Source: Leisingera sp. SS27 (GTDB lineage: Bacteria; Pseudomonadota; Alphaproteobacteria; Rhodobacterales; Rhodobacteraceae). Taken from it: 64,000 bases of DNA. Both the position numbers and the translations under genes were made by a program. The notes beneath the pieces were generated by a model. That model was not told the origin of the DNA, searched no databases, and saw nothing but the letters and a program-made list of their open reading frames with translations. Position 1 is the first letter of the stretch. Each line of letters starts with the position of its first letter. The stretch covers positions 62,001 to 126,000 of the forward strand of contig NZ_JAQNCY010000010.1 in the NCBI RefSeq assembly GCF_028368855.1. Direction: 5' to 3'. This document shows positions 1,177 through 11,093 of the stretch, one piece after another.

Positions 1177-2705
1177 GCCGCCACCTTCACGCCAGCGGCA
1201 TCCGCCACGCGGCCCGCGCGGACCATGGCGCTGGCGGTTTCAATGTCGGGCGCCAGATAGCGGTCCTCGGCCAGCGCGGGGATCTCCTCGCGCAGCATCG
1301 CCAGCACGTCCTGCAAGCGGGCCGAGGTCTTGAGCGGCGCACGCGCCTCAACCCCTTGCGCGGCACAGAGCATTTCGACGCCCAGGATCACCGACAGATT
1401 TGCATTCATCTTCGCCAGACGCAGCGCGCCGTGGGCGGCCATCGACACGTGGTCCTCCTGGTTGGCCGAGGTCGGGGTCGAGTCAGTCACGCAGGGGTTC
1501 GCGAGATGCTTGTTCTCGCTCATGAGCGCGGCAGTGGTCACCTCGGCGATCATGAAGCCGGAGTTCAGACCGGGATCGGGCGTCAGGAACGGCGGCAGGT
1601 CGTGGCTGAGGGTCGGGTCCACCATCAAAGCCACCCGGCGCTGCGCAATGGCGCCGATTTCAGCCACCGCCAGCGCAATCTGGTCAGCAGCAAAGCCTAC
1701 GTATTCGGCATGGAAGTTGCCGCCGGAAACGATCCGGCCTTCATTCACCAGCACCAGCGGGTTGTCGGTGACGGCATTCGCTTCGATCTCCAGCGTTTTG
1801 GCGGCCATCCGCAGCACGTCCAGCGCCGCGCCCACCACCTGCGGCTGGCAGCGGATGCAATAGGGATCCTGCACGCGGGTGTCATCCTCGCGGTGGCTCT
1901 CGCGGATTTCGGACCCGTCCATGATGGCGCGCATTTCGCGGGCCACGTCGATCTGCCCGGCATGGCCGCGAAGGGAGTGGATGTCGGCCACCAGCGGCGC
2001 AGTAGATCCCATGATGGCGTCCGTGGTCAGCGACGCGATGGTCATTGAGGCCTCGGCCATGCGCCAGGCATCGAACAGTCCGGCCAAGGCGCAGGCGGTC
2101 GAAAACTGGGTGCCGTTGATCAGCCCCAGGCCCTCCTTGGGACCCAGTACAATAGGCTCTAACCCTACCTTTTTCAGCGCATCCGCGCTGGACATGCGGG
2201 TGCCTTCAAACGTGGCCTCCCCTGCCCCGATCATCGCCGCCGCCATATGTGCCAGCGGTGCCAGGTCGCCGGAGGCGCCGACGGAACCCTGCGACGGGAT
2301 CACCGGCACCACGCCGCGCTCCAGCATCTGTTCGATCTGGTCAATCACCAGCCAGCGCACGCCGGATGCGCCGCGTCCCATCGACAGCAGTTTCAGCGTC
2401 ATCATCAGCCGGGTCTTATCCTCCGGCAGCGCCTCCCCTACCCCGCAGCAATGGCTGAGGATCAGGTTGCGCTGCAGGGCGGCGGTGTCAGCCGGTGCGA
2501 TCTTGGTCGAGGCCAGCTTGCCGAAACCGGTGTTGATGCCATAAACAGCTTCTTCTCCGGCAGCGGCATCCGCAACCATTTTGGCTGCAGCCTCCACCGG
2601 TTCACGGGCTGATGCGTCCAGTTTGGCCGGGGTCAGGTTGCGGTAGATATCTTCCAGCGTGGCCAGGGTCACTGTGCCCGGAACCATCTGAATCATCTCG
2701 ATCAT
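1173..2705 (-). CDS. hutH: histidine ammonia-lyase (histidase)
   Basis: A 510-residue aromatic amino-acid lyase, full length for HutH. The MIO-forming tripeptide Ala-Ser-Gly is visible in [14 protein letters not shown], and the family segments [10 protein letters not shown] near the N-terminus and [12 protein letters not shown] in the middle are present. The enzyme deaminates L-histidine to urocanate, the first pathway step. The ATG at 2705 overlaps the hutI stop codon (ATGA); in-frame ATGs three and six codons later are possible alternative starts. It lies in the order hutI-hutH-hutG-hutU, so the operon is transcribed from upstream of hutI. Confidence 0.96.
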
Positions 2706-3910
2706 CGTTTTCCCTCATAAATACGGGTGTAAAGCGGGTTGAAGCCGATGCGGTAGGCGAGCTCGGCAGGGCTCTCTACGTCCCAGACCGCCAGATCGGC
2801 GCGCATACCGGCGGCAATCCGGCCGCGGTCCGCCAGCCCCAGCGCGCGGGCTGCGTGCCGTGTAACGCCTGCCAGCGCTTCCTCCGGGGTCATGCGGAAC
2901 AGGGTGCAGCCCATGTTCATCGTCAGCAGCAGGGAGGTCAGAGGCGAGGAGCCGGGATTGCAGTCGGTCGCCAACGCCATCGGCACGCCGTGCGCGCGGA
3001 AGTGTTCGATCGGCGGCATCTGGGTTTCGCGGATGGTATAGAAGGCACCGGGCAGGATCACCGCAACGGAACCCGCGGCAGCCATCGCCTTGGCGTCGTC
3101 TTCGGTTGCATATTCCACGTGATCGACTGACAACGCGCCATACTGCGCCGCCAGCGTGGTGCCGCCCTGATGGCTCAGCTGTTCGGCGTGCAGTTTCACC
3201 GGCAGGCCCAGTTCCCGTGCTACCTTGAACACCCGTTCGATCTGGGCGGGGGCAAAGGCGATGTTTTCGCAGAAGCCGTCGACCGCATCCACCAGCCCTT
3301 CCGCAAAAGCGGCGCGCAGGGCGGGGATGCAGACCTGATCGATGTAGTCATCGTCGCGGCCCTTGTACTCACCGGGCGTCGCATGAGCGCCGAGGAAAGT
3401 GGTTTTCACCGTCACCGGGCGCAATTCGCCCAGGCGGCGGGCAGCGCGCAGCATGTTCAGTTCGGTGGTCTGGTCCAGCCCGTAGCCGGATTTCACCTCC
3501 ACCACCGCGGCACCCTCAGCAATCAGCGCGTCGAGCCGCGGCAGCGCGCCCTGCACCAGCTGCTCCAGCGCGGACTCGCGGGTGGCAGACACGGTGGAGA
3601 CGATGCCGCCCCCTGCCCTTGCAACCTCCTCATACGTGGCGCCATTCAGGCGCATCTCAAACTCCATCGCGCGGTTGCCGCCGAATACGATATGGGTGTG
3701 GCAGTCGATCAGGCCCGGTGTCACCAGCCGCCCGTCCAGATCAACATGCTTCCAGGGAAAATTGTCAGCTGACAATTCCTGCCGCGGCCCGGCCCAGACG
3801 ATTTTCCCGTCCGAGACCGCAACAGCCCCGTCCTCAATCAGCCCGTAAGGCGCGTCTGAGCCGACCATCGTGGCCAGCCGTGCACCTGTCAGAACGTAGT
3901 TGCCAGTCAC
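2702..3910 (-). CDS. hutI: imidazolonepropionase
   Basis: A 402-residue amidohydrolase-superfamily enzyme that hydrolyses imidazolone-5-propionate to formiminoglutamate. Metal-binding motif [12 protein letters not shown] is present, then [21 protein letters not shown] and [10 protein letters not shown], as expected for HutI. The start is a GTG at 3910 preceded by GGGGAGA, a good ribosome site; it is the first gene of the hut operon. Oddity: residues around ELSADNF are encoded by an 18-base perfect palindrome (3760-3777) identical in its core to two palindromes beside repC, so the gene seems to carry a plasmid centromere site inside its coding sequence (entered separately). Confidence 0.95.
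3760..3777. repeat. parS-like palindrome inside hutI
   Basis: Perfect 18-base palindrome AATTGTCAGCTGACAATT. The 14-base core TTGTCAGCTGACAA recurs at 5441-5460 and 5589-5602 next to repC, and I found no other copy in the window. RepB proteins of alphaproteobacterial repABC plasmids bind perfect palindromes near the rep genes; this copy lies about 1.8 kb downstream of repC, inside the hutI reading frame, and encodes Leu-Ser-Ala-Asp-Asn-Phe. Confidence 0.72.
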
Positions 3911-3960
3911 GCAAATCTCCCCGAGTCGCTTGGTTGCCGGTTTGGCAATAAGCTACTCAT

Positions 3961-3984
3961 TTAGGATATTATGTCTAGTCATAA
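3961..3984 (-). promoter_or_regulatory. candidate hut promoter with overlapping operator
   Basis: Upstream of hutI the sequence turns AT-rich. On the minus strand TAATAT (3966-3971) could be a -10 element. It overlaps the imperfect 16-base palindrome TTATGTCTAGTCATAA (3969-3984; 14 of 16 bases symmetric), a plausible repressor site such as for a GntR/HutC-type regulator. No hutC gene is in the window, and the -35 element is weak, so this remains tentative. Confidence 0.35.
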
Positions 3985-4015
3985 AATGAATAAGCGGCGC
4001 CTTTGGCCGGCGGTG

Positions 4016-5341
4016 CTAGGGTCCCTCTTTCTGCGGTATCCGCGGGTGCAGATCGTCGATGATGATCGGATGCGCATGCGGGTGGCCGCCCTGCAGATGC
4101 GGATGATCGGGCGGCAGGTCCGGGTGCTCATGCGCAACCGGCGCTGCGCTATCCGCAGGCCACAGACGCTGCGCGGCGGCCAGCCCCGCGGCAGCCAGCA
4201 GTGCCAGCACCAGCATTGCGGCCCCTGCCCCCCAGGATGCCATCAGCCAGGCCGACAGCGGATAGAACACCAGCCAGCAGGCATGCGACAGGGTGAACTG
4301 CGCGGCAAAGATCGCGGGCCGGTCTGCCGCATGGGCCGAGCGTGCCAGCAGCCGCCCCGAGGGTGTCATCACGGCGGAATAGCCAAGGCCGATCAAGAAC
4401 CAGGCAATTGCCAGCCGTGCAAAATCCAATGGCTGCGCCAGCACGGTCAATGCCAGCACCATCAGCACGGCAGTCCCCAGCGCGCTGCCCGCCAGCATCA
4501 CGCTGCGGTCGGGAACACGCTCCAGCAGCCGAGGCAGCAGCATTGCCGACAGCATCGAACCGCCGCCGAAACAGGCCAGTGCCAGCGCCACCGCGCTTTC
4601 CCCCTGCCCCAGCCCGGCGCGCACCAGCACCACGGTATTGACCAGCACCATCGCGGCCATTGCCGAGACCACCCAGTTCATTGCCAGCAGCCCGCGCAGC
4701 CGCGGGGTACGCAGATAGTTGCGGATGCCCCGGGTGGTGCGCTGCCAGATGGGCCGGGGCGCCTTGGGTGCTGGCGACGGCAGAACGATTGAAACGAGCA
4801 GCAAGGCTGAGGCCGCAAACCCCGCCGCGGTACCCCAGAACAGCGTCGAGGAACTGACCAGCACCAAGAGCGCCGCCGCCAGCATCGGACTGATGAGGCT
4901 TTCCAGTTCATACGCCATCCGCGACAGCGACAGCGCCTGAGTATAGTCCTTCTCCTCCGGCAGCACATCGGGGATCGAGGCCTGGAAGGCGGGCGTGAAT
5001 CCGGCTGAGGCAGACTGCAGCACAAAGATCAGCAGATAGACCTGCCACACCTCCGTGACGAACGGCAGGCAAACGGCCACTGCCACCCGCACCATGTCGA
5101 GGCTGATCAGCATCCGGCGGCGGTCCAGCTGTTCCGCCCAGGCGGCGGCGATGGGGGCGATTGTGACATAGGCCACCATCTTGATCGTCAGCGCCGTCCC
5201 CAGCACCACCCCCGCGCGTTCCCCGGCCAGATCATAGGCCAGAAGGCCAAGCGCAACGGTTGCCAGGCCGGTGCCAGTCAGCGCCACAATCTGGGCCAGG
5301 AACAGGTGCCGGTAGGTCCGGTTACGCAGGATGGAGAGCAT
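4016..5341 (-). CDS. MFS transporter with histidine-rich C-terminal tail
   Basis: A 441-residue major facilitator with about 12 hydrophobic segments. It starts MLSILRNRTYRHLFLAQIVAL, as in many drug- and metal-efflux MFS proteins, and has the A-like loop AEQLDRRRMLISLD between early helices. The last roughly 40 residues are soluble and carry a cluster of histidines and acidic residues (HEHPDLPPDHPHLQGGHPHAH), which suggests divalent metal binding. NreB-type nickel exporters also combine an MFS body with a histidine-rich tail, so metal efflux is the best guess, not a demonstrated function. It lies between the hut operon and repC on the same strand as both. The start at 5341 follows a GC-rich leader with no strong ribosome site; upstream are a 14-base palindrome (5515-5528) and two parS-like sites. 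Confidence 0.8.
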   Translation of the reverse strand: MLSILRNRTYRHLFLAQIVALTGTGLATVALGLLAYDLAGERAGVVLGTALTIKMVAYVTIAPIAAAWAEQLDRRRMLISLDMVRVAVAVCLPFVTEVWQVYLLIFVLQSASAGFTPAFQASIPDVLPEEKDYTQALSLSRMAYELESLISPMLAAALLVLVSSSTLFWGTAAGFAASALLLVSIVLPSPAPKAPRPIWQRTTRGIRNYLRTPRLRGLLAMNWVVSAMAAMVLVNTVVLVRAGLGQGESAVALALACFGGGSMLSAMLLPRLLERVPDRSVMLAGSALGTAVLMVLALTVLAQPLDFARLAIAWFLIGLGYSAVMTPSGRLLARSAHAADRPAIFAAQFTLSHACWLVFYPLSAWLMASWGAGAAMLVLALLAAAGLAAAQRLWPADSAAPVAHEHPDLPPDHPHLQGGHPHAHPIIIDDLHPRIPQKEGP

Positions 5342-5440
5342 GGGGGCCTTGCCTTCTGGCTGGGAATATCCCCGCCACTGTGGCCGCCGGGAGGCCGGGA
5401 AAGCAATGGCCCCTGCAGCCGCAGCCGAGGTGAAGGAGAA

Positions 5441-5460
5441 AATTGTCAGCTGACAATTTC
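5441..5460. repeat. parS-like palindrome downstream of repC
   Basis: Perfect 20-base palindrome AAATTGTCAGCTGACAATTT in the intergenic region between the MFS gene and repC. It is the longest and most symmetric of the three copies. Location just downstream of repC and identity of the core to the other copies fit a RepB-binding centromere site. Confidence 0.78.
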
Positions 5461-5514
5461 ATTCAGAACGCGCCGGTGCCGGCATGCACCGATGTGATTT
5501 TCAGCCCTCGTAAC

Positions 5515-5528
5515 TGTGGCGCGCCACA
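5515..5528. promoter_or_regulatory. 14-base perfect palindrome upstream of the MFS gene
   Basis: TGTGGCGCGCCACA is fully self-complementary and unrelated to the parS-like palindromes beside it. It lies about 175 bases upstream of the MFS start and 65 bases past the repC stop. It could be an operator for the transporter gene or part of the replication region; the sequence alone does not decide. Confidence 0.3.
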
Positions 5529-5588
5529 TCCGTGCTCCCTGCGGCAAACGGTTTCGCACGCAGGCGGGATTAGTGATGTTCCCGAAAA

Positions 5589-5602
5589 TTGTCAGCTGAC
5601 AA
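5589..5602. repeat. parS-like palindrome spanning the repC stop codon
   Basis: TTGTCAGCTGACAA is perfectly palindromic. The minus-strand repC stop codon (TGA, 5594-5592) lies inside it, so the last codons of repC (Val-Val-Ser) are written in the site. The left flank keeps the AA of the longer copies, but the right flank has a C interrupting the symmetry. Confidence 0.75.
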
Positions 5603-6734
5603 CTTCCGCCTGTTTCCCTGCCTGCAGCAGCGCATTCAGCATCGGAGCCGTGGAAAACTGACCCGCTCGCGCCTTTTGCGCCAAGCGTCTGAGGTAGGCG
5701 CCTGGACTGCGGATGGTACCGAGTTTTTCCAGCATGCAGATCACCGCCGTTGCGGCCTCCTTGCGGCCCATGGCCGCGCGTGCGTCGCTCAGCACCGGCA
5801 TGTCGATGCCCATCATAGGTGACAGGGTTTCTGCGATGCGGTCGGCATCCTGCCAATTTCGCAGCGCGCCGGGGTAATAGGTTTGAACCTCGGGACAGGC
5901 ACGCAGGACAGTGGCCAGATCACTGCTTTTCTCAGCTGTGCTGTCCCTGGCATCTGAATGCAAAGGCTGAGGGCAGCGCGTCTTGGTCTGCGGCGCTTCA
6001 GAGTCAGAATCTTTTTTTATTGAATCCTGTATGTGCCGCTCATTCTGGCTGACAGGGGCGCTCATTTTGCCTGCAGCGGGCAGGGCGGCTTGCGGCGTTT
6101 CCTCCGGTGTCCGGCTGGCAATTTCCGAGCGCAGCAGCTTGGCCATGTCCGACAGGTCCGCTTCGCAGGGTTTGCGGCGCAGCAGTTTGCGGGCCGTCTC
6201 CAGCAATGCCTCTGCCGTGCCGTCAGCCAATTCCAGCAGTTCCTGCCGCAGAACGGCAACACGGTCGCGCAGCACTGCCAGGTGCTCGGCACGGGCCTTG
6301 GCCTCCAGCGCGGCACCGAAGATTTGACCGGCATGGCGGGCGAGGGGGGAGAGATCGAAGCCAAAGGCGAGGGCCGTGTCATCACCGCTGCGGCGCGCGT
6401 AACGCTTGCGGTTGGGGCTGTTCTTCCGGCTGACAATGCCGATGCGGGTGAGGGCGGCCAGATGCCGGCGCAGGGTGCTTTCGGGCATCCCGTTCAGCCG
6501 CTCCATCAGTTTGCGGTTCGACGGAAACACGATGGCGCTGTCCGGGTCTGCTGGCAATGCGCGTTCCGGGAAGAACGTCAGCAATGCCTTCAGGACGCCA
6601 AGGGTGCGGTGGCTCAGTTCAAATTCCGCGGCGGCGTGCGTCAGCGCGGCCAGAAGATCCCACTTGTCGTGAGTACCCGCCAGCCGGCCGCACGGATCCT
6701 GCCGCCCAAATGCGATTTGGGACGCCTGTTCCAT
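5592..6734 (-). CDS. repC: RepC replication initiator of a repABC replicon
   Basis: A 380-residue RepC. The N-terminal half contains the winged-helix initiator region with the family stretch DLLAALTHAAAEFELSHRTL, then FPSNRKLMERLNGMPESTLR and HLAALTRIGIVSRKNSPNRKRY. The C-terminal part has DLATVLRACPEVQTYYPG and ends in MGIDMPVLSDARAAMGRKEA, as in other RepC proteins. RepC starts replication, with the origin usually inside repC itself. I chose the ATG at 6734; an upstream GTG (6746) or TTG (6755) in frame is possible. The 160-base gap to repB carries the candidate antisense RNA that would control its expression. The plasmid compatibility group cannot be named from reading alone. Confidence 0.94.
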   Translation of the reverse strand: MEQASQIAFGRQDPCGRLAGTHDKWDLLAALTHAAAEFELSHRTLGVLKALLTFFPERALPADPDSAIVFPSNRKLMERLNGMPESTLRRHLAALTRIGIVSRKNSPNRKRYARRSGDDTALAFGFDLSPLARHAGQIFGAALEAKARAEHLAVLRDRVAVLRQELLELADGTAEALLETARKLLRRKPCEADLSDMAKLLRSEIASRTPEETPQAALPAAGKMSAPVSQNERHIQDSIKKDSDSEAPQTKTRCPQPLHSDARDSTAEKSSDLATVLRACPEVQTYYPGALRNWQDADRIAETLSPMMGIDMPVLSDARAAMGRKEAATAVICMLEKLGTIRSPGAYLRRLAQKARAGQFSTAPMLNALLQAGKQAEVVS

Positions 6735-6785
6735 GATTATTTTCACGAAAGACAAAGAATTCCCGCCCCCATGCAGCGCATGGAG

Positions 6786-6916: not shown

Positions 6917-7891
6917 TCAGTCTTCCGGCTGCTCGGGCTGGTCTTTTTGCCAGCGGCCGTGAAGCTCTGCCATGATCTCTTCTGCGTTTTTGTCGAACCA
7001 GGCGTCAAAGCCGGGCGTGTCCTTGCCGGAGATCGTCAGGGTGATGCCCTTGGCGGTGGATTTGATGCCTGCCACAGCGGCGCCGTTGCTGCCCGGCAGG
7101 GCGCGGGACTTTGGCGGGGCAGGGGGGGCTTTCACCTCCTGGCTCACGCCTTGGGCATGGGTCAGAACCGCCTCGAACCGGCCGTCGGAGTCAAAAGTGG
7201 TGAAATCGGGCCGGTTTGTCCGGGTGATGGCCCGCGCCCGTGCCGCGGGATCGTCAAACAGCTTGACCAGCAGCATCCAGCGGTCGCGGCCAATGCCGGG
7301 GGCGGAGCCGATGGCGCGCAAAAACGGCAGCTCAAACGCGGTGCCGACTTTCAGCATCCGCGAGACCATTGGCAGGTCGATCGAAAGCGCCGCGGCGATT
7401 GTCGGCCGGTCATAGCCGTCGTTCTGCAGTTGCGCCGCAAAGGACGCCTTTTCGATAAAGCTAAGATCCAGGCGCGAGGTGTTTTCCTGCCCCTGCGCCA
7501 TCACCAGCGCGTGGTCGTCCAGCTGCCGCACCATCGCCTTTACGGCCATGCCAAGTTCGCGCAAGGCTGCGAGGCGGCGGCGGCCATAGACGATTTCGAA
7601 ACGCCCCGGCGCCTTGGGGTGCGGGCGCAGCAGCACCGGCACCTGCTGGCCGTAGGTCCGAAGGCTCTCCACCAGCTGGAGATGCGGGGCGCCGTCGCCG
7701 CCCAGCCGGTCCTCGTAACCGGCGTCGTCGATCAGCGCCGGGTCAATTTCCTGCACCGCGCTTTCCTGCAGCTTGCTGAGCGAGGATTGCAGCGCGCCGA
7801 CCGCGCCGCGGGGCATCATCTTGGGTTTCGGCCCCGGAGCGGATGCTGCGTGGCTGCTGAGTGCCGTGCTGAGAATACCTTTGCGTGCCAT
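6917..7891 (-). CDS. repB: RepB partition protein (ParB family, repABC)
   Basis: A 324-residue ParB/Spo0J-family centromere-binding protein. The ParB N-domain is seen in RTYGQQVPVLLRPHP, YGRRRLAALRELG and MAQGQENTSRLDLSFIEKA, followed by a helix-turn-helix around YDRPTIAAALSIDLPMVSRM. RepB binds parS palindromes, here most likely the TTGTCAGCTGACAA sites, and works with RepA to segregate the plasmid. The start at 7891 is chosen because ATG overlaps the repA stop (TGATG) and GGAGG stands six bases upstream; an in-frame ATG four codons earlier is less well placed. Confidence 0.95.
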   Translation of the reverse strand: MARKGILSTALSSHAASAPGPKPKMMPRGAVGALQSSLSKLQESAVQEIDPALIDDAGYEDRLGGDGAPHLQLVESLRTYGQQVPVLLRPHPKAPGRFEIVYGRRRLAALRELGMAVKAMVRQLDDHALVMAQGQENTSRLDLSFIEKASFAAQLQNDGYDRPTIAAALSIDLPMVSRMLKVGTAFELPFLRAIGSAPGIGRDRWMLLVKLFDDPAARARAITRTNRPDFTTFDSDGRFEAVLTHAQGVSQEVKAPPAPPKSRALPGSNGAAVAGIKSTAKGITLTISGKDTPGFDAWFDKNAEEIMAELHGRWQKDQPEQPED

Positions 7892-9066
7892 CAACGCCTC
7901 CATGCTTGTTGAAGGAGCGATTCTATTTCATCGTTAACTTGATTCAGTGAATCCACCGCACGGTCGTAGGTTGACCTGTGAAACATGGACCTTTCGACCT
8001 CATAGACGGTTTGCTGGGTCAGGCCTGCATCGGAAATCGCGGTGGATTTCAGCATCGGGGCGACCATCACTTCCTCGCCGAACAATTGCCGCAGGAATGC
8101 AACCACCTGTTGCTGCGGGCCGTCGTTCGGCTCGTACCGGTTGATAAGGAAGCGCAGGAAATCGAACTCCAGCGCGGCACCGGCGTTGGAGACCACGTCC
8201 AAAAGCTCGGCGGACATCTGCAGGAACTGCGACATCGAGGCGATGTCGAGCATGTTCGGCACCACAGTGATGATCACGCCGGTGGAGGCGCAGAGCGCCG
8301 ACATGGTCAGATAGCCCAGCTGCGGCGGGCAATCGAAGATGATCACGTCGTAATCCTTCTCGACCTCCTGCAGCGCGGCGGCCATGCGCGAGAAAAACGC
8401 GGGCTGCACGTTGTTGATCAGTGCCTGCGGGGTCTCGTGTTCGAACTCCTGCAGGATCAGCCCGCCGGGGGCGAGGTCCAGATTGGCGAAGTATGTCTCT
8501 TGGATGATGTCGCGCAGGGGCAGGGGGTCATCATAGCGGATTGCGTCATAAATCGTCCCTGTTTCAAGGAAATCGACCTCTGGACGGTATCCGAAAAGCG
8601 TCGTCAGCGACGCCTGCGGGTCGATATCCACCGCCAGCACCCGGTAGCCCTTGAGCGCCAGCCGCTGTGCGGTGTGAATGGACGATGTGGTCTTGCCCGA
8701 TCCGCCCTTGAAATTCAGGAACGACAGCACCTGCACCTTGTCTCCCTCGCGGCGGCCGCGCAGGTAGGTGCCGGGCGTCTTGGCCGCGGCATCCAGGATC
8801 TTGCGCATCTCCATCAGGTCGGCGGCGGAATAGTGGCGGCGCCCGCCCGGGGTGGTGTGCACCTCGGGGAATTTGCCGTCAAAATGCAGCTTGCGCAGGA
8901 AGCTTGGGGAGATCCCCAGCATCTCAGCCGCCTCGCCGGCGCTGAACAGGCGCAATTCCTTCCTTGCATCCGGCGCAAAACTGGCCAGCATGTGGCTGTT
9001 GAGGGCCGCACTGAGGTTCTCCGCGTTCTCGCGGATACGCTGATTGATGTGGAGTGCTACTGCCAC
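7891..9066 (-). CDS. repA: RepA partition ATPase (ParA family, repABC)
   Basis: A 391-residue ParA-type ATPase. The N-terminal region has a MerR/ParA-like helix-turn-helix (FSAGEAAEMLGISPSFLRKL) used for autorepression. The deviant Walker A motif KGGSGKTT is at about residues 119-126, and YDVIIFDCPPQLGYLT matches Walker A'/B regions. RepA drives segregation with RepB and represses the operon. The start is a GTG at 9066; the next in-frame ATG would remove 26 residues. It is the first gene of the repABC operon, with a 470-base upstream region that contains a perfect DnaA box. Confidence 0.95.
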   Translation of the reverse strand: MAVALHINQRIRENAENLSAALNSHMLASFAPDARKELRLFSAGEAAEMLGISPSFLRKLHFDGKFPEVHTTPGGRRHYSAADLMEMRKILDAAAKTPGTYLRGRREGDKVQVLSFLNFKGGSGKTTSSIHTAQRLALKGYRVLAVDIDPQASLTTLFGYRPEVDFLETGTIYDAIRYDDPLPLRDIIQETYFANLDLAPGGLILQEFEHETPQALINNVQPAFFSRMAAALQEVEKDYDVIIFDCPPQLGYLTMSALCASTGVIITVVPNMLDIASMSQFLQMSAELLDVVSNAGAALEFDFLRFLINRYEPNDGPQQQVVAFLRQLFGEEVMVAPMLKSTAISDAGLTQQTVYEVERSMFHRSTYDRAVDSLNQVNDEIESLLQQAWRR

Positions 9067-9536: not shown

Positions 9537-11093
9537 ATGACTGAGCAAGCCACTGCCCCGCGCACCCGCTCCGGCGGCCGCCACGCCCGCCGCGCCCTGC
9601 GCACCGCCCCGAAATTCGACATGCTGCCGGGCCTGACCCGCAATATCCCGCTGTGCGAGGTGATGGACGGTGCCCAGGTTGAGATGATCGACAACGCCTC
9701 GATGGACATTCTGGAAAACGTGGGTGTCCAGTTCCGCGACCCCATCGCGCTGGAGGATTGGAAACGCGCAGGCGCCAAGGTCGCGGGCGAGCTGGTCTAT
9801 CTCGACCACGGCCTGGTGCGGGAACTGATCAAGACCATTCCCAGCGATTTCACCTATCACGCGCGCGACCCCAAGAAGAACATCCGTCTCGGCGGCAGGC
9901 ATTCGATGTTCATCCCGATGACCGGCGCGCCGTTCCTGCGTGATCTGGACGACGTGCGCCGCAATCCGATGCTGGAAGACCTGGCGATGTTCCACAAGCT
10001 GGCGCATATGATGCCGGCGATGCATTCCTCGGCGCATCACATCGTGGAACCCTATGATCACCCGATCAGCCAGCGGCATCTGCGGATCACCTATTCGTCG
10101 ATGAAATACTCCGACAAGACGTTCATGGGCATGACCACCAGCCCCAAGAACGCCGAGGATGTGATCGACATGTGCGCGATCCTGTTCGGAGAGGATTTCA
10201 TCGACAGCCACCCGGTCGTTACGGGCAACTGCAACGGCAACTCGCCGCTGGTCTGGGATGAGACCATGCTGGGTGCCATGCGCGCCTTCTGCCGCAGGAA
10301 TCAGCCGGTGCTGTGCTCTCCTTTCGTGCTGGGCGGCGCCAATACGCCTGCGTCCGTCCCCGCAACCGTTGCGCAGCTGAATGCTGAGGCGCTGAGCGCA
10401 CTGGCCTATACCCAAGTGATCCGCAAGGGCGCGCCGGCGATCTATGGCCATTACCTGTCGACCGTCAGCATGAAATCCGGCGCGCCGATGGCGGGCACGC
10501 CCGAGATTTCGCTGATGAACTTCATGATAGGACAGATGGCGCGGTATTACGGCGTGCCATGGCGCACTTCCAACACGCTGGGCGGTGCCAAGACGTTTGA
10601 TGCGCAGGCGGGTTATGAATCCGCCACCACCCTGTCGGCGGTCATGCATGCCGGCGCCAATTACATCTGGCACTCGGCAGGCTGGAACGAGGCGGGCATG
10701 CACTGCTCTGTCGCCAAATTCATCGTCGATGCAGAGCAATGCGCCATGGCATACCGGATGGCGGAAGGCCCGAAATGGCATGATTTTGATCAGGCGCTGG
10801 CGGCGGTGCCGGATGTCGGCCCCGGCGGCCACTACCTGGGCCACCCGCATACGCAGGAGAACTTCCAGGAGGCATTCTTCATGCCGGAGCTGTTCGACAA
10901 TAACTCGATCGAGCAATGGCAGGCTGAAGGCAGCGTCGAGATCACCGAACGCGCCCTGACCCGCGCGAAAAAGCTGCTGGCGGAATACCAGGAGCCAAAG
11001 CTGGATCAGGCCAAGAATGAAGAGCTTCTGGAATATATCACCCGGCGCGAGCGGGAAATCCCCGCGGCGGATGAGCTGAACCAAAGCTACTAG
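9537..11093 (+). CDS. MttB-family (trimethylamine methyltransferase-like) corrinoid methyltransferase, non-pyrrolysine
   Basis: A 518-residue MttB superfamily protein. Recognisable segments are [55 protein letters not shown] and [18 protein letters not shown]. True archaeal MttB reads an in-frame amber codon as pyrrolysine; this frame is open without one, so it belongs to the non-Pyl group, whose known members demethylate glycine betaine, proline betaine, carnitine or related quaternary amines by methyl transfer to a corrinoid protein. No corrinoid-binding partner or reactivase is in the window. AAAGGAG precedes the ATG, and a strong terminator at 11109-11142 follows the gene, so it may be transcribed alone. 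Its neighbour is an HpbD-like betaine epimerase, which suggests a proline- or hydroxyproline-betaine substrate. Confidence 0.85.

Follow-up and report, generated by a model that had tools for sequence, protein, structure and literature searches.

The 64-kb window analysed here, a stretch of contig NZ_JAQNCY010000010.1 of Leisingera sp. SS27, carries the 14-bp palindrome TTGTCAGCTGACAA in three exact copies beside a repABC replication and partition operon, one of them inside the imidazolonepropionase gene hutI. The three copies are probably parS sites, recognized by the ParB-like protein RepB, of a RepABC partition system that probably belongs to group 8, with the hutI copy held mainly by selection at the DNA level; on sequence comparisons, a probability of about 0.7 is given to this reading. 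From the observed presence and recurrence of the copies, the conservation of codons and residues, and the association with RepB, we infer that RepB binds the sites and that they contribute to partition. A RepB dimer would be expected on each 14-bp palindrome and, with RepA, would segregate the plasmid; the copies at the repC stop codon and in the intergenic region would form a proximal array, with the hutI copy, about 1.8 kb off, as its distal member. The hutI site would be kept mainly for its DNA and not for the protein, in a loop that may tolerate Leu-Ser-Ala-Asp-Asn. The set of likely RepB sites would extend past the plasmid, as the same 14-mer recurs at ten other positions shared between genomes, of which seven are chromosomal.

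The three copies (Table 1) are the only ones in the window. A scan with up to three mismatches added nothing to them, 100 dinucleotide shuffles of the window yielded no exact 14-mer, and Markov models of orders 1–3, fitted to 0.38 Mb of Leisingera sequence with the palindrome sites included, predict 0.0001–0.0005 copies per 64 kb and 0.01–0.04 per 4.8-Mb genome. The copy in hutI is read as TTG TCA GCT GAC AAT TTT, which encodes Leu-Ser-Ala-Asp-Asn-Phe (HutI residues 46–51). A preliminary description of the stretch had counted exactly three 14-mers in 64 kb, had placed them across the repC stop codon, in the next intergenic region as a 20-base perfect palindrome, and in hutI, and had given this hexapeptide; all of this is confirmed. 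Beyond the window, two more exact copies are present, both on other contigs of the same genome. Past the window end on the same contig, a long open reading frame (ORF) contains a one-mismatch copy (window-relative position 71,753), at a distance of about 66 kb from the array.

In Rhodobacterales, repABC modules are described as having up to four parS copies after repC, also within the following ORFs and typically 0.5–4 kb away (PMC9040568, in the parts covered). In the published parS consensus for repABC replicons the core is TTNNCNGCNGNNAA, to which the palindrome conforms; it matches the inner core of GTTNNCNGCNGNNAAC from that survey, and the G and C at the ends of the 16-mer are not retained. 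Its placement is also that of a repABC parS, with repeated copies inside the operon or a short way downstream. Moreover, RepABC groups have their own palindromes, TTAACAG/CTGTTAA in group 1 and TTCACAG/CTGTGAA in group 2 (PMC5613091, as far as covered). The palindrome studied here has the same length and the same place after repC and is likewise diagnostic of the partition group, but its half-sites are TTGTCAG/CTGACAA, tentatively assigned to RepABC-8 via matched type-strain plasmids (PMC3910692, PMC3910543). Other RepB groups go with other palindromes: in seven such RepABC modules, taken from five Leisingera genomes, TTCACAGCTGTGAA, TTTACCCGGGTAAA or TCCACCGCGGTGGA follows repC, and the 14-mer is absent from the fetched stretches at up to two mismatches.

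The association of the palindrome with one RepB subgroup holds beyond the genus. In a sample of 149 genomes that takes one from each genus of the family, the own genome included, and sets subgroup membership at E at most 1e-80, five have both the RepB subgroup and the exact 14-mer, one has only the 14-mer, one only the RepB, and 142 neither (Fisher 6e-8); the 14-mer occurs in six of these genomes and a reversed-pattern control in one. The subgroup members from other genera are 59–68% identical. Of 43 rows listed from other genera, five plasmids were inspected, from Ruegeria, Parasedimentitalea, Alloyangia, Salipiger and Phaeobacter; all five carry the 14-mer in the repC 3′ end, with differing neighbour genes. 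The copies had been called parS-like from the outset; this description is supported, and the palindrome tracks the RepB subgroup across genera. Within the family sample, one 14-mer copy of G040 is on another contig than its repABC, and the repB genes of G064 and G108 are each reported with one in-frame TGA.

The copy in hutI is found at homologous codons in all 21 Leisingera genomes, being exact in 18 and having one mismatch in three (G003, G009 and G010), all of the form TTGCCAGCTGACAA. The five site codons have a synonymous diversity of 0.036 against a mean of 0.296, a value undercut by three and equalled by two others among 394 windows, and the mean pairwise identity of the 14-nt stretch is 0.982 against an average of 0.863. 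When DNA identity inside a window is set against protein identity around it, the hutI site ranks first among 381 windows. The codons themselves are unusual: TTG makes up 8.8% of the Leu and GCT 5.5% of the Ala codons in the 21 Leisingera hutI genes, and at other hutI positions where the residue is conserved, a single codon is used throughout in 6 of 34 cases for Leu, 2 of 37 for Ala and 2 of 12 for Asp. Outside Leisingera, residue 47 of HutI is Pro in 69 of 73 loci (from 80 kept) and Ser in none, and no exact 14-mer was found in the DNA examined for these loci. In Leisingera, this residue is Ser in 18 of 18 exact sites, while the three mismatch copies keep Pro. Residues 46–53 are predicted as a coil between two strands, with a mean predicted local distance difference test score (pLDDT) of 84.5. 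From the synonymous conservation, the rare codons and the Pro-to-Ser change, it appears that a requirement at the DNA level shapes the hutI codons and one of the residues; the constraint on codon choice suspected earlier is supported, and it extends to the choice of a residue.

The arrangement in G017 suggests how the coding copy may have joined the array. This genome gave no match for the MFS gene that separates hutI from repC in the window; hutI directly follows repC, its palindrome is 390 bp from the next copy, and three palindromes stand within about 0.5 kb. RepB of G017 is 74% identical to the window RepB.

The 14-mer is dispersed over the genus far beyond hutI and repC. The 21 Leisingera genomes contain 101 exact copies against none for the reversed control, and 165 against one with up to one mismatch. 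The exact copies divide into 18 in hutI, 43 in repC-proximal arrays and 40 elsewhere, and all 40 of the latter fall into ten families of shared position, each present in at least two genomes; the families were joined by DNA matches over 400 bp, except that in one plasmid family mostly the neighbouring gene was matched. Seven families, with 29 copies, are chromosomal, each with members on multi-megabase contigs: upstream of rpsB (8 exact copies), inside trmFO (7), in the gap between eutA-like and pehA-like genes (4), in the spoVR–adhC gap (4), in the gap between an aldolase and a LysR-like gene (2), after rpoH (2), and inside murF (2). The names eutA, pehA and LysR are below the curated cut-offs, and rpsB was named from its translation. 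The three families with plasmid members comprise 5, 3 and 3 exact copies, nine of these eleven being on a repABC-carrying contig. The number of dispersed copies varies between genomes, and 9 of the 21 have none.

The rpsB copy overlaps a promoter-like −35 element toward rpsB (TTGTCA, a 17-bp spacer and TATAGG, read by eye). At this column the exact site is found in 8 of the 21 genomes; further genomes have variants, among them two with the symmetric TTGCCAGCTGGCAA. A general operator of the form TTGTC-N4-GACAA was considered and rejected, the own genome having nine matches, five of them the exact copies, against seven for the reversed control. Nor do the sites as a set look like promoter operators of a transcription factor, as copies stand after stop codons and inside trmFO, murF and hutI; the rpsB and aldolase/LysR copies may lie in promoter regions.

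The dispersed copies have the look of a DNA site under selection, and their most likely reader would be RepB, given that sampled genera lacking this RepB hardly ever have the 14-mer. A broader proposition, held at somewhat less than even odds on the basis of the copy counts and shared positions, is that in Leisingera the partition RepB of RepABC-8 binds its centromere, hutI and about seven core-genome positions, some of which came from recoding of the housekeeping genes trmFO and murF, so that the partition complex would touch or regulate the chromosome and the replicons would be evolutionarily locked to each other.

The recoding is best followed in trmFO. Eight genomes read TTA TTG TCA GCT GAC AAA (LLSADK) at this place, with the exact 14-mer in seven and one synonymous change in G020, while the other 13 have LLAADK, or LLAAEK in G019, six of them written as CTG CTG GCC GCC GAC AAG. 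Since the carrier groups were defined by the site itself, differences within it are uninformative, and a binomial figure for the clustering of trmFO differences at the site was withdrawn for the same reason; only differences outside the 14-mer were counted. There, near-fixed differences between the groups occur in 3 of 446 codons, and two of the three flank the 14-mer (chance about 3e-5); both flanking codons differ, and the trmFO recoding therefore reaches beyond the palindrome. The two murF copies are in the reading frame of hutI and encode LLSADN. In hutI, trmFO and murF alike, the palindrome is read in one common frame, as Leu-Ser-Ala-Asp.

The exact hutI site also persists in two of the 21 genomes, G006 and G020, that have no RepB of the subgroup. 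G006, a draft of about 50 contigs, gave no RepB match at E at most 1e-40, and the best RepBs in G020 are 37–39% identical. In G020 (L. thetidis), the hut block is among unrelated genes on a 355,522-bp plasmid whose own repABC has another palindrome. The proposal that the hut operon is tied to the replicon is therefore not supported as worded. The preliminary description had also named hutI bases conserved far from any repABC locus, without this RepB group, as a case that would refute its reading; such a case does occur, in these two genomes, and is not decisive, since branches of this length leave room for a relic. The terminal branches of hutI measure 0.06–0.07 substitutions per site (the deep branches of the hutI and trmFO trees are unresolved), which gives a rough expectation of about one synonymous change in the site per lineage, so that its survival without RepB proves little.

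On the L. thetidis plasmid, hutI holds the only exact copy, and the same 355-kb contig has five one-mismatch copies, which are possibly decayed sites. In this genome the trmFO copy has one synonymous mismatch and the rpsB copy two, and the hutI and aldolase/LysR copies are exact. Among sites with at most one mismatch, 7 of 9 are mismatched in G020, and in the 19 genomes with the RepB the figure is 57 of 155 (Fisher 0.03, computed after the fact, or 0.05 with G006 added), counts that are biased because the loci were found through existing exact copies; the excess is a hint of site decay after RepB loss.

Several further observations weigh against the parS reading. G110 has the 14-mer without a RepB of the subgroup, and in G064, which has such a RepB, the sole site is a one-mismatch copy directly behind repC; these two, together with G006 and G020, are the exceptions to the group specificity and co-inheritance that were otherwise found, as is expected of a parS. 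The hutI copy is mismatched in G003, G009 and G010 although RepB is present there. When 14-nt windows are ordered simply by identity, the site in hutI comes only 22nd of 1205, and longer invariant runs, of up to 20 nt, occur elsewhere in the gene. Finally, the chromosomal copies stand in contexts that need no plasmid centromere, so another reader is conceivable.

Such a reader is the main competitor for the dispersed copies: the 14-mer would primarily be the site of a chromosome-encoded DNA-binding protein, a regulator or a nucleoid protein, and the plasmid and hutI would merely carry it. The 29 exact copies in seven chromosomal families, the promoter-like −35 overlapped upstream of rpsB and the survival of the hutI site in two genomes without this RepB group are all in keeping with it. 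This explanation is nevertheless unlikely, as the 14-mer is present in only 5 of 148 genomes of other genera, four of them with the RepB subgroup, as its most consistent place in several genera is in or just after repC, and as several chromosomal copies occur after stop codons (the spoVR and rpoH ends) or in coding sequence (trmFO, murF) and not at promoters. Slightly less probable again is that hutI passively retains a remnant of what was once a longer parS array, perhaps bound and now without function. Both G006 and G020, as well as the 390-bp spacing in G017, would agree with a relic, and so would the arrays of the RepB-bearing genomes, which have one to three other exact sites. A relic does not readily account for near-invariance over 21 genomes when pairwise synonymous distances in hutI run from 0.31 to 1.1 among the listed values, nor for the rare codons and the Pro-to-Ser change in a place where the flanking residues vary.

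An element acting in RNA, as a hairpin or a transcription terminator, is very improbable and was rejected on inspection of the sequence. The palindrome followed by T-runs could fold, and the two rpsB genomes with the changed yet symmetric TTGCCAGCTGGCAA are what a hairpin might leave; however, copies lie inside the coding sequences of hutI, trmFO and murF, a separate GC-rich inverted repeat stands after the palindrome at rpoH and at BCCT, and mostly base identity is preserved, beyond mere pairing. Chance matches are negligible as an explanation: nothing was found in their favour, and they were rejected on the window, genus and Markov counts given above, in addition to the excess over the reversed control among the 149 family genomes. 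The preferred reading of the plasmid copies, the one in hutI among them, is as parS sites of a RepABC-8-type system.

Table 1. Palindrome copies and genes of the repABC–hutI region (window coordinates)
Feature	Position	Strand	Remarks
hutI, imidazolonepropionase, hosts the embedded site	2702..3910	-	TIGR01224 hutI above cut-off
parS-like palindrome TTGTCAGCTGACAA in hutI	3762..3775	.	codons 46-50; 18-bp perfect palindrome including flanks
MFS transporter gene between hutI and repC	4016..5341	-	Pfam
parS-like palindrome between MFS gene and repC	5440..5459	.	20-bp perfect; 14-mer core 5443-5456
parS-like palindrome across repC stop codon	5589..5602	.	exact 14-mer match
repC, replication initiator	5592..6755	-	Pfam RP-C, RP-C_C; NCBIfam NF040974 RepABC_RepC above cut-off; ORF limits
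repB, ParB-like centromere-binding protein, presumed palindrome reader	6917..7903	-	TIGR03454 partition_RepB above cut-off; ParB_N and RepB domains
repA, ParA-like partition ATPase	7891..9066	-	TIGR03453 partition_RepA above cut-off

The hutI–MFS–repCBA stretch, used as a query, was matched over at least 80% at one place in sixteen plasmid records, all from Leisingera. On the other side of repA, the divergent ORF 9537–11093 belongs to the trimethylamine methyltransferase family in the annotation of several related plasmids. In the plasmid of Leisingera sp. NJS201, the annotation divides repC (4505–5646) into two pieces, and its homology match is likewise split. The replicon of the window is probably of the RepABC-8 compatibility group, a label taken from its relatives G003 (pAqui_C182) and G007 (pMeth_B221); L. 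aquimarina pAqui_C182 and L. methylohalidivorans pMeth_B221 are classed as RepC-8 (PMC3910692, PMC3910543, in the parts covered). For pCaer_B246 (245,600 bp), the sections covered of a further report give RepC-2 in its Table 5 and RepC-8 in its Table 6, and pCaer_E70 is likewise discordant (PMC3910702). In G004, the genome of that report, TTCACAGCTGTGAA, the palindrome of group 2, lies on the 70,306-bp contig at 1.4 kb beyond the RepB match (repC being unmapped), which favours Table 6.

The study in which the RepABC groups were defined is reportedly that of Petersen from 2009. Among the papers listed by literature searches touching on this question, no published work on chromosomal copies of the 14-mer was recognised, and a literal search on its half-sites gave, among the matches listed, no paper presenting the 14-mer as a partition site. 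A parS2 site is known on Vibrio chromosome 1.

Partition sites away from their plasmid have a parallel in the parS-like sites of SGI1, which are read by the IncC ParB and some of which are chromosomal (PMC10954446, as far as covered). Those sites are mostly on an integrated mobile element and their binding has been demonstrated, whereas the copies in Leisingera occupy shared core-genome positions, trmFO and murF among them, and are putative binding sites. The 3parS locus of pAMI4 similarly holds parS sites that lie outside the repABC operon and contribute to stability, but it is a non-coding 2-kb locus 11.5 kb away and involves no metabolic gene (PMC9040568, in the parts covered). In-ORF parS sites downstream of repC have already been described for Rhodobacterales (Czarnecki 2022; PMC9040568), where, in the sections covered, they are proposed to be positively selected even in coding sequence, with cas genes as the most intriguing example; hutI is a well-documented new case. 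It differs from those described in the gene concerned, in the codon-level tracing over 21 genomes and in the change of a conserved residue, and the chromosomal copies seen here are without mention in the sections of that survey covered.

Leisingera offers a genus-wide record of a coding sequence yielding to an apparent plasmid DNA-site requirement, traceable codon by codon; such selection has already been proposed for repABC plasmids (PMC9040568, as far as covered). If it is true that RepB reads the chromosomal copies as well, the chromosome would bear a conserved map of binding sites for a protein of plasmid segregation, and the communication between the chromosome and extrachromosomal replicons would become directly testable in marine roseobacters.

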